Shown here one piece after another: positions 29,173 through 37,440 of a stretch of DNA of 64,000 bases. The position numbers and the translations under genes are program-made. The notes beneath the pieces are model-generated. The model saw only the letters and a list, made by a program, of their open reading frames with translations. It did no database searches and was not told where the DNA came from. The stretch lies in the NCBI GenBank assembly GCA_028876495.1, contig JAGWRO010000018.1:96969-160968 (forward strand), given 5' to 3'. Source of the stretch: Bacteroidota bacterium (GTDB taxonomy: Bacteria > Bacteroidota > Bacteroidia > Chitinophagales > Chitinophagaceae). Each line of letters starts with the position of its first letter. The stretch's first letter is position 1.

Positions 29173-29290
29173 GGATGAATTATGATTTTATGATTAATGG
29201 TAATAAAATCAAAATCCTTTTGATTTATTCATTTACTGTAAGATCTATTTCCTTATTTATTTGCAATTCTGCTTCAAGTATCTTTGCAAA

Positions 29291-31264
29291 ATGGCATATA
29301 AAAATTTGCAGGAATTTATTGATGTTCTTGAAAAAGAAAACGAACTTATACGTATAAAAGAGTATGTAGATCCACATTTGGAAATAGCAGAAATTACCGA
29401 CAGGATAAGCAAAAGTAAAGATGGCGGAAAGGCCTTGCTTTTCGAAAACACGGGTTATGATTTTCCTGTGCTGATGAATGCTTATGGAAGTGAAAAAAGA
29501 ATGTGCCTTGCATTAGGCGTTCATCATTTAAATGATACAGCAAAAGAAATAGAAAATTTATTTCACCTGCTTTCATCTCCCAAAGAAAATATCATTGACA
29601 AATTGAAATTACTGCCGAAACTCGGACAGTTTGCAAGCTGGATGCCGAAAGTCATCAGCGGAAGAGGAGAGTGCCAACAAGTAATTATGGAGAAGCCTGA
29701 TATTACTAAACTTCCCGTAATAACCTGCTGGCCCAAAGATGGTGGCCCATTCGTAACGCTCCCGATCATTCATACGAAAGATCCCAACAATCATTCCCGG
29801 AATGTGGGAATGTATCGTATGCAGGTTTTTAGCCCAACACTTACAGGAATGCATTGGCACAAACATAAAGTTTCAGCAAAACATTTTAATGAATACAAAA
29901 AATTAAATAAGCGTATGCCCGTTGCCGTCGCATTAGGTGGAGATCCGGCTTATGCTTATTCTGCTACGGCTCCTTTGCCCGAAAACGTTGATGAATACAT
30001 GCTTGCAGGTTTTTTAAGGAAGAAAAAAGTGGAACTGGTGAAATGCATTACGCAGCCGGAGATTGAAGTGCCGGCAGATGCAGACTTTATCATAGAAGGT
30101 TATATTGATCCTAATGATGAGTTGATTTGGGAAGGTCCTTTTGGAGACCATACCGGTTATTATTCTTTACCGGATTGGTACCCAAAATTTCACATCACAG
30201 CTATAACTCATAAAAAAAATCCTGTTTATCCTGCAACAATTGTTGGCATTCCGCCACAGGAAGATGCATGGTTGGGAAAAGCAACAGAGCGAATATTTTT
30301 AGCGCCGATAAAGATGACATTGGTTCCGGAAATTGTAGATATGGAAATGCCGGTTGAAGGTGTTTTCCATAATTTGGTAATTGCTAAAATTCAAAAAGAT
30401 TATGCAGGGCAGGCGCAAAAAGTAATGAATGCCATGTGGGGTGCAGGTCAGATGATGTTCAATAAAATATTGGTGGTATCCGCCCCTAACCCCTCCAGAG
30501 GAGGGGAATCGCAAACTTTGCTTCTTACTGATTATGTAAGTGTTGCCAAAGACGTTTTCAAAAATTTAAATCCTTCAACCGATATTTATTTTTCTCAAGG
30601 GCCGATGGATGTGTTGGACCATAGTTGCAGCAAATTGGGATTTGGCGGTAAAATGTGTATTGATGGAACTTTTAAGTATGAGGAAGAAAAGGATGACCAA
30701 TTTTCGTCTGTGTTTCCCCGTTTTATTGCTGATTATGAAACAGAATTACTAAAAAGATTCCCCGAAATAAAAGCGATTAATTTTTCATTGATTGAAAAAG
30801 AAATTCCTTGTTTGCTTATTGCCTTGCAAAAAAATAAAAAGGAGCACGTAAAAAAATTACATGAGCTACTTTTTGAAACCGGAATTATTGATGGAATAAA
30901 AATGATATTGTATGTTGAGCATACAATCAATCCAAACGATCTGCCCGTTGCTTTGTGGCGATTCTGCAATAATCTCGATCCTAAACGCGATCATTTTATA
31001 GTAAAGAAACAATCTCCTGAAAATTCTAATTTATACCTCGCCTGTATCGCGTTTGACGGCACTTTGAAAACAAAAGAATTTGATGATTTTTATCGTGATT
31101 GGCCCAACATTATTATTGCTGATGATAAAACAATTGATTCAGTGGATAAAAAATGGCCTGCACTTGGTTTAGGAGAATTTATCCCTTCGCCATCTTTAAA
31201 GTTTAAAGGGCAAATGTATGGTGAGGAAGCAGTAGCCGAATTTGACAACTCAAATCAAGCGTAA
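29291..31264 (+). CDS. UbiD family decarboxylase
   Basis: WEGPFGDHTGYYSLPDWYP, GIPPQEDAWLGKATERIF, DHSCSKLGFGGKMCIDGT; ATG at 29291. Confidence 0.9.
   Translation: MAYKNLQEFIDVLEKENELIRIKEYVDPHLEIAEITDRISKSKDGGKALLFENTGYDFPVLMNAYGSEKRMCLALGVHHLNDTAKEIENLFHLLSSPKENIIDKLKLLPKLGQFASWMPKVISGRGECQQVIMEKPDITKLPVITCWPKDGGPFVTLPIIHTKDPNNHSRNVGMYRMQVFSPTLTGMHWHKHKVSAKHFNEYKKLNKRMPVAVALGGDPAYAYSATAPLPENVDEYMLAGFLRKKKVELVKCITQPEIEVPADADFIIEGYIDPNDELIWEGPFGDHTGYYSLPDWYPKFHITAITHKKNPVYPATIVGIPPQEDAWLGKATERIFLAPIKMTLVPEIVDMEMPVEGVFHNLVIAKIQKDYAGQAQKVMNAMWGAGQMMFNKILVVSAPNPSRGGESQTLLLTDYVSVAKDVFKNLNPSTDIYFSQGPMDVLDHSCSKLGFGGKMCIDGTFKYEEEKDDQFSSVFPRFIADYETELLKRFPEIKAINFSLIEKEIPCLLIALQKNKKEHVKKLHELLFETGIIDGIKMILYVEHTINPNDLPVALWRFCNNLDPKRDHFIVKKQSPENSNLYLACIAFDGTLKTKEFDDFYRDWPNIIIADDKTIDSVDKKWPALGLGEFIPSPSLKFKGQMYGEEAVAEFDNSNQA
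30483..30508. repeat. GC-rich palindromic mini-repeat inside the ubiD-like CDS
   Basis: CCCCTAACCCCTCCAGAGGAGGGGAA; perfect 7-bp stem CCCCTCC/GGAGGGG with AGA loop (30490-30506). Confidence 0.75.
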
Positions 31265-31271
31265 TAATACA

Positions 31272-31311
31272 AAATGCTATTGGAAAATCCTCAAACTTTC
31301 CAATAGCATTT
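31272..31311. terminator. Bidirectional terminator between convergent ubiD-like gene and lpdA
   Basis: 15-bp perfect stem AAATGCTATTGGAAA / TTTCCAATAGCATTT with 10-nt loop. Confidence 0.85.
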
Positions 31312-31340
31312 ATCAATTTTAAATTCTAAACCTGAAACTC

Positions 31341-36060: not shown

Positions 36061-37440
36061 TTAAATGATTTTTAAACTTTCAATTTTGGCTGCAAAGTAA
36101 GCACTTTTGGAGGGATTAATCAAACTTAATTTTTCATACATTTCAATTGCTTTTTCCCTCTTTCCCTGCTTTAGTAAAACCTCTGCCATGGCTTCAGTAA
36201 GAACATTTGCGCTTTTGTTGGAAACTTCTGAAGAGGTTTGAATTAACTTTTCAATTACTTCGTTTTGTTCAGGAAGCTGGCCAGGGTGTAATTTCTTCAT
36301 ACTTTTCAGCCATGCAGTAAAACTTTTTACCTGTTTTCCCAACTGGTCATCATTCAATGCCTCTTCGCTTAACTTAATGCCCTGGGAAGCAAAATAATCA
36401 ACGGTATGCAGCGGCTCAAAAGGAATGCTAAAGTCATCCTCTTCTTCTGTATTAGTTTCTGAATCAGAAGTTTCTTCGCCGGTAATTTTTTCTTCTGTAG
36501 CAGGAATTTTTATGTCAAATACAGATTCTTCTTTTTTAAATGCTGGTTCACTTTCGCTGTAAACTTCATTTGGTTGTTCACTCAATTGTGTTCCAGGCTC
36601 AACCGTTTCTTCTTTTGCTGTTTCTTCGTCTTGCTGCTCTGCAACTTCATTTTCCGAAATTAGATTCTCACTAATTTGTTCGTTTACCGGATGAGCTAAA
36701 CCTTCATCTTCGGTTTGAGATTTAAAAACCTCATCCCAATTTTCACTTTCACTTTCTACTACCGGTTCTGCAACAAGTTCTTCACCCGCGCTTTCAGTTA
36801 CTTCATTTTCTGAAATGAAATTCTTACTAATTTGCTCGTTTACTGGCTGAGCTAAACCTTCATTTTCTGTTTGAGATTCAACAACCTCATCCCAATTTTT
36901 ACTTTCAATTTCTACTTCCGGTTCTGCAACAAATTCTTCATCCGTGCTTTCAGTTCCTTCATTTTCAGAAATAAAATTCTTACTAATTTGCTCGTTTACT
37001 GGCAAGGTCAAATTTTCCTCTTCTGTTTTTGAATCTATAATTCCGGAAGTATTTTCATTGGATATTTCACCAGAGATTGTCTTATAATTTTCATTTATAA
37101 GTAAATCATTATCAACTAATTTTTCAACTTCATTTGAAATTTCCATTTCGCTATTTTCTTCTTCAGCAGCGGACAAGTTAACCTTGATATTATCATTAAT
37201 TTCAGGTTCTCTATCTAATTTTGACAACTGGAATTCCATCCAATAAGGGTTATGCAAATAAATGCCGGTTTGCTTTGCCACTTCTTCAAAACGAGGGTCA
37301 TTATTTTTTTTAAGATGATAAAGCCGTAAAAACCTTGCCACCGAACTTACCGGGAAATTCCGTACATTATTTTCAATTGCCTCTGCATCTATTGAAAGGT
37401 CAGAATAATATAGCTCAGCGTAATTGGTTTCTGTATTCAT
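36061..37440 (-). CDS. Hypothetical protein with acidic internal repeats and TPR-like C-terminus
   Basis: 52-aa internal repeats starting PVNEQIS; C-terminal LLKQGKREKAIEMYEKLSLINPSKSAYFAAKIESL. Confidence 0.8.
   Translation of the reverse strand: MNTETNYAELYYSDLSIDAEAIENNVRNFPVSSVARFLRLYHLKKNNDPRFEEVAKQTGIYLHNPYWMEFQLSKLDREPEINDNIKVNLSAAEEENSEMEISNEVEKLVDNDLLINENYKTISGEISNENTSGIIDSKTEEENLTLPVNEQISKNFISENEGTESTDEEFVAEPEVEIESKNWDEVVESQTENEGLAQPVNEQISKNFISENEVTESAGEELVAEPVVESESENWDEVFKSQTEDEGLAHPVNEQISENLISENEVAEQQDEETAKEETVEPGTQLSEQPNEVYSESEPAFKKEESVFDIKIPATEEKITGEETSDSETNTEEEDDFSIPFEPLHTVDYFASQGIKLSEEALNDDQLGKQVKSFTAWLKSMKKLHPGQLPEQNEVIEKLIQTSSEVSNKSANVLTEAMAEVLLKQGKREKAIEMYEKLSLINPSKSAYFAAKIESLKII
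36674..37001 (-). repeat. 156-bp in-frame repeat, cores at 36674, 36830 and 36986
   Basis: ATTTGTTCGTTTACCG, ATTTGCTCGTTTACTG and ATTTGCTCGTTTACTG spaced exactly 156 bp apart; encode PVNEQIS on the minus strand. Confidence 0.9.

Follow-up and report, generated by a model that had tools for sequence, protein, structure and literature searches.

How did a GC-rich palindrome come to lie, in frame, within a gene for a UbiD-family enzyme, and by what means might it have arrived? The gene occupies positions 29291–31264 (+) of the window (i.e. the whole 64-kb stretch of DNA that was analyzed), which belongs to a 4.70-Mb Chitinophagaceae genome (G000:C99); Ginsengibacter is among the relatives of G000 (same genus). 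It is of the menaquinone-biosynthesis decarboxylase type and encodes 657 residues from the ATG at 29291, within an open reading frame that opens with a TTG at 29261. The product matches the Pfam families UbiD_N, UbiD and UbiD_C, and it scored 600 bits against the menaquinone-type model TIGR03701 (NCBIfam), above the curated cut-off of 496.

The in-frame insert and its repeat family

In a sequence-only reading of this DNA, it had been claimed that 17 residues separate KILVV from DY in this protein where about 8 are usual, that the extra 27 nt coincide with a palindrome having a perfect stem, and that an “intergenic-type” palindromic mini-repeat had landed in the coding sequence without breaking the frame. 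The excess length was confirmed by alignment: the spacing is 17 residues in the window and 8 (ADEGVKIQ) in most orthologs, VVSAPNPSRGGESQTLLLTDY is found where most orthologs have VLADEGVKIQDY, and E. coli UbiD is likewise ca. 9 residues shorter at the insertion point. Orthologs with the same length and residues would have refuted the claim; they differ in both. Measured against nearer relatives with long loops, the excess is smaller (6 residues compared to G016). The inserted codons (30482–30508, +) read GCC CCT AAC CCC TCC AGA GGA GGG GAA, i.e. A-P-N-P-S-R-G-G-E in frame; the proposed landing of a palindromic repeat without loss of frame is supported. The inserted codons begin with the C-rich foot GCCCCTAA (30482–30489), which is followed by the left arm of a hairpin (CCCCTCC, 30490–30496), its loop (AGA, 30497–30499, identical to the loop of the copy at G000:C22:2068) and its right arm (GGAGGGG, 30500–30506), all on the plus strand. 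The stem of this hairpin (30490–30506) is perfect (7/7), and the hairpin coincides with the extra 27 nt. In an AlphaFold model, the insert is coil between a strand (residues 391–397) and a helix (residues 415–425); the mean pLDDT of the model was only 62.5, and only the order of strand, loop and helix at the site was used. Downstream, an A-T-rich hairpin, probably a two-way terminator, is located at 31272–31312 between the ubiD gene and a convergent gene for dihydrolipoamide dehydrogenase. Elsewhere in the window (36644–37003), a 156-bp unit is present in 2.3 repeats of 90% identity.

The hairpin at ubiD was the only GC-rich stem of at least 6 bp in the window; 20 shuffled windows together contained five. 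The sequence-only reading would have been refuted had the palindrome occurred nowhere else in the genome, and the family is present elsewhere. When up to two mismatches were allowed, CCCCTCCNNNGGAGGGG was found at 17 places in the 4.70-Mb genome, versus 1 for a reversed control pattern. The exact 24-mer is unique in the genome; one further copy differs from it by 1 mismatch, and four others differ by 3. A covariance model retrieved 19 copies from G000 at E ≤ 1 (13 of the 19 at E < 0.003; several of the 19 belonged to the training set), and the aligned copies have a common foot, GCCTCCCC-N-AA, 5′ of the hairpin. In three cases, two copies 85–120 bp apart were arranged as an inverted pair, and even a single pair of this kind would be expected by chance with a probability of ca. 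0.01. These pairs were recorded for comparison to MITEs, which have terminal inverted repeats and a target-site duplication; for want of a sufficiently close, clean empty site, a target-site duplication could not be read at ubiD. The exact 17-mer CCCCTCCAAAGGAGGGG was present in 24 of 297 sampled genomes of the phylum, and the control gave zero. A de novo palindrome survey of 400 kb from G000 and 400 kb from G336 recovered the CCCCTCC family in both, and no second dominant palindrome family was found in the 400 kb from G000.

The varying length of the ubiD loop in the family could be taken to favor an origin of the GC-rich palindrome by chance, or by local slippage where the loop is variable. 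However, foot and stem are common to unlinked copies, and the counts are far above the controls; this explanation can be practically dismissed. That a dispersed repeat, recurrently in frame, explains the palindrome in ubiD is very probable. The repeat had no match above chance to a known RNA family, and its hairpin sequences were absent from the literature searched (subscription papers were not covered, and novelty is not proven).

Copies in and beside other genes

About half of the copies in G000 lie within genes or at gene ends. The term “intergenic-type” needs correction, the repeat not being mainly intergenic. In-frame copies were observed within ValRS, HtpG and a histidine kinase (three paralogs). 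TrpB, a Met-gamma-lyase-type enzyme and a 177-aa protein carry one at the C-terminus, whereas a NuoB-like protein and a GNAT acetyltransferase have one close to the N-terminus. Six of the coding copies read P-S-[K/R]-G-G, and the extra residues are missing from homologs of known structure for ValRS, TrpB and Met-gamma-lyase. The remaining copies are mostly intergenic, with one of them directly after a stop codon. Two copies (G000:C22:2054 and G000:C24:127146) immediately precede the start codons of a pair of short paralogous genes (MATSVYTINKG.. and MNSVYQINKG..). In other Bacteroidota, the same element was found in frame in IcmF, an ABC transporter, MetH and a restriction-modification-type methylase; in two related methylase genes (L199 and L213), the site is shared and the element is inverted in one relative to the other.

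Coding palindromes have been known since Rickettsia. The criterion for a Rickettsia palindromic element (RPE), i.e. an in-frame palindromic repeat in several unrelated protein genes, was met by the present family, which also resembles RPEs in its presence in many housekeeping genes at tolerated loops and termini. The family differs from RPEs in its phylum, in its size and build (ca. 30 nt with a C-rich foot; RPEs are longer than ca. 30 nt) and in being tied to DUF559 units (see below).

There is likewise a resemblance to REP, BIME and REPIN sequences, which are dispersed 20–40 bp hairpins that are sometimes found in inverted pairs and sometimes within genes. The criterion of size and copy number for REPs (an imperfect palindrome of 20–40 bp in many copies) was met, although the ca. 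19 copies of ca. 30 nt are few for a REP. The element might be of the REP type and be moved by a RAYT (TnpA-REP) Y1 transposase, either E. coli-like or of the atypical Bacteroidetes subclass 2.6. The size of the element, its palindromic structure and its inverted pairs are in keeping with this explanation, and in-frame REPs inside genes as well as atypical Bacteroidetes REPs have been published (PMC3733652, PMC6006769); in two Xanthomonas species, REPs are located at about the same site in recB (PMC3733652). However, the foot is GCCTCCCC-N-AA, and neither of the REP feet GTAG and CGTC is present. Further, both RAYT genes of G000 carry other palindromes: the intact gene (L153, G000:C85:2377) is flanked by AACGTC..GACGTT, and the second, broken gene (L152, G000:C50:30590) is near GGCTCC..GGAGCC repeats. 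The CCCCTCC family was found within 700 bp of the Y1 gene at 0 of 30 Y1 loci from other genomes, and no cognate RAYT flanked by the same repeat was found in G000 or 14 other genomes, in which the RAYT flanks carried other palindromes. RAYT was rejected as the mover; this explanation is largely refuted in G000 and was judged quite improbable.

Repeated occupation of the same loops

Judging from the aligned genes, the insertion in ubiD is not a private event, as palindromes lie at the same point of ubiD in several other lineages. The loop contains CCCCTCC/GGAGGGG in G000, G017 and L056, TCCCCCC/GGGGGGA in L074, L124 and L126, CCCCCC/GGGGGG in L076 and CTTCCCC/GGGGAAG in L028. Decayed forms were seen in L024, L025, L027 and L063, as were decayed, non-pairing copies in G019, G011 and G015. 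In each case, the variant resembles the repeats resident in the same genome, with the agreement extending to the GGT loop in G032. Apart from this loop, the ubiD gene of G007 (L055, at 4733) has a second palindrome in reverse orientation near the 3′ end of the gene, and the ubiD genes of L027 and L124 have, after GKMCIDGT, a second variable loop that is occupied by tandem repeats (e.g. GTTTCAGGTTTCAGGTT or GTCGGCAGTC).

Other proteins presented a similar picture. One loop of HtpG holds, in G000, a copy of the own-genome repeat and, in G044, an unrelated palindrome. A loop of ValRS contains the palindrome in G000 and a decayed one in G019; in G002 it is occupied by another hairpin, and in G007, G014 and G018 by repeats of a quite different kind. 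Other in-frame repeats were noted in ValRS loops (L011, i.e. G000:C96, and L346–L365); they read SSQHSAISS and SNQQSAISN in G000, and CACGTCTCACGTCTC repeats are present in G007 and G014.

Must the carriers of ubiD palindromes have acquired them separately? A single ancient insertion could have been kept as a functional hairpin (in mRNA or DNA) by compensatory change and lost in some lineages. The carriers agree in site, orientation and frame, their flanks are locally similar, and the stems stay perfect despite synonymous sites that are near saturation (identity at fourfold sites is 0.53 for G000 and G017 and 0.37 for G000 and L056; the 14 stem bases are identical). The identity of the stems at such divergence also counts in favor of repeated acquisition. 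However, when a tree was constructed from ubiD without the loop and its neighborhood, a single clade of carriers of perfect palindromes was rejected (AU p = 6e-138), and eight changes were needed on the tree. Moreover, stem, foot and tail switch together to the resident family, the copies in three genomes have decayed and no longer pair, and the loops of HtpG and ValRS behave alike. One ancient insertion is therefore considered improbable; a single ancestral event was rejected on the tree, and local mosaicism remains.

The 45 residues that follow the ubiD loop are 91–96% alike among L056, L074, L076, L124 and L126, the whole genes of which are not close, and carriers show little variation in the position and orientation of the insert. 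These features indicate a contribution from the exchange of allele segments or from the replacement of old copies. On this evidence, allele recombination or old-copy replacement would have to be part of the history of ubiD, either alongside fresh insertion or in its place; between replacement and fresh insertion, the data do not discriminate. Retention inside genes, repeated filling of the ubiD loop and decay are supported by sequence comparison.

DUF559 nuclease genes beside the hairpins

DUF559 is a large family of unknown function. Small DUF559 ORFs between copies of the element were first noticed when clusters of elements were read. DUF559 genes were gathered by protein alone, blind to the repeats, from IMG/VR, plasmids and 800 kb of G336. 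A hairpin was counted if it was at least 7 bp, had a pyrimidine arm and was within 260 bp of the gene; 34 loci were usable. Hairpins were observed on at least one side at 27 of these loci, versus 123 of 617 control positions in the same loci (20%, p ~1e-12), and on both sides at 15 of the 34, versus 11 of the 617 (1.8%, p ~1e-14). In a second control, which consisted of Bacteroidota stretches, at least one side was positive in 32/3000 and both sides in 0/3000. When annotated genes were compared, both-side hairpins were present at 6 of 15 DUF559 genes and at 0 of 43 other neighboring genes.

The units were found between operon genes (sufB/sufC, paaD/paaZ and two transhydrogenase subunits), and a whole DUF559 domain, with hairpins on both sides, was found in frame between the enzyme domains of MetH (L210) and IcmF (L338, L345). 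The same hairpin build was evident at DUF559 genes of Sphingomonas (cctcccccaa-CCCCTCCCGCCTGCGGGAGGGG), Pseudanabaena (gccccctaaa-TCCCCCAATTCTGGGGGA-ctt) and Deinococcus (cctctcccaa-CCCTCTCCCGCAAGGGGAGAGGG). With the DUF559 profile, PDB 3hrl was retrieved, as was, with a weaker match, 3r3p (“mobile intron protein”, E = 1.2e-4). The resemblance to Vsr-like homing endonucleases (3r3p) comprises the profile match and a small nuclease that stands by itself in a unit situated between operon genes or, in frame, inside proteins; unlike these enzymes, DUF559 units have no intron or intein, their ends are repeats of foot plus hairpin, and homing has not been shown. DUF559 and inverted repeats were not described together in the literature searched (again without subscription papers, and again novelty is not proven).

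The hairpins could instead be mobile by unidentified means, with DUF559 being a passenger or a gene prone to adjoin terminator-like hairpins. The genome under study has hairpins, and a search of the 1.26 Mb that were read of its 4.70 Mb gave no DUF559 gene, nor was there one beside any of its 19 copies; also, 7 of the 34 DUF559 loci had no such hairpin. This explanation does not readily accommodate the hairpins of matching sequence on both sides of DUF559 genes in Bacteroidota, Cyanobacteria, Alphaproteobacteria and Deinococcus, the absence of both-side hairpins from the 43 other genes at the same loci, or the relationship of the DUF559 nuclease to a homing endonuclease. It is regarded as unlikely, if still a serious contender.

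The explanation preferred as a whole, with a probability of roughly 0.7, is that the ubiD palindrome represents one solo copy of a repeat that is dispersed in the genome and has DUF559 as its mover. In this repeat (ca. 30 nt), a C-rich foot is joined by a short A-rich spacer to a hairpin in which one arm is pyrimidine and the other purine; the repeat has no coding capacity of its own. Copies would arrive widely, and of those in genes only the ones that keep the frame in a permissive surface loop, linker or terminus would survive. In different lineages, the ubiD loop after KILVV would on several occasions have received a copy, always a variant of the resident repeat, and older copies would decay to ordinary loop sequence. 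The most likely mover would be the DUF559 nuclease, which is Vsr-like and kin of a known homing endonuclease. Whole DUF559 units would settle within operons, between the genes, or in frame in other proteins, and the solo hairpins would be non-autonomous copies or remnants of such units.

The insert, the repeat family, its in-frame copies, the reuse of the same loops and the association with DUF559 have been demonstrated. The role of DUF559 as mover is an inference with an even chance of being correct; copies were not seen to move, and neither a target-site duplication nor a cut site was observed. The movement of copies and the derivation of solos from units are inferred as well. More tentative, and falling a little short of even odds, is the notion of a minimal mobile unit across phyla, in which a stand-alone DUF559 (Vsr-like) nuclease between C-foot hairpins spreads in a homing-like manner and leaves or mobilizes solos, the ubiD insert being one of them. 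On this view, units and solos alike would settle in housekeeping proteins because the hairpins can keep the frame open. The criterion of an encoded homing-family nuclease was met by DUF559 units elsewhere and not by the window copy. Because the portion of G000 that was read lacked DUF559 and movement is inferred, the window copy was filed as a coding palindrome (RPE-like), not as a REP.

To our knowledge, no mover has been named for most coding palindromes. Here, hairpins of the same build occur as solos in essential genes and, in at least four phyla, flank a small nuclease gene on both sides; a concrete candidate enzyme is thereby provided. If true, the preferred explanation would account for odd in-frame loops and for DUF559 “fusions” in otherwise ordinary proteins, and it would give DUF559 a testable role. 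At G014:C75:27795–28551 (L322), four elements of a second family (TCTCCC-TAAA-GGGAGA) are arrayed around a DUF559 gene.
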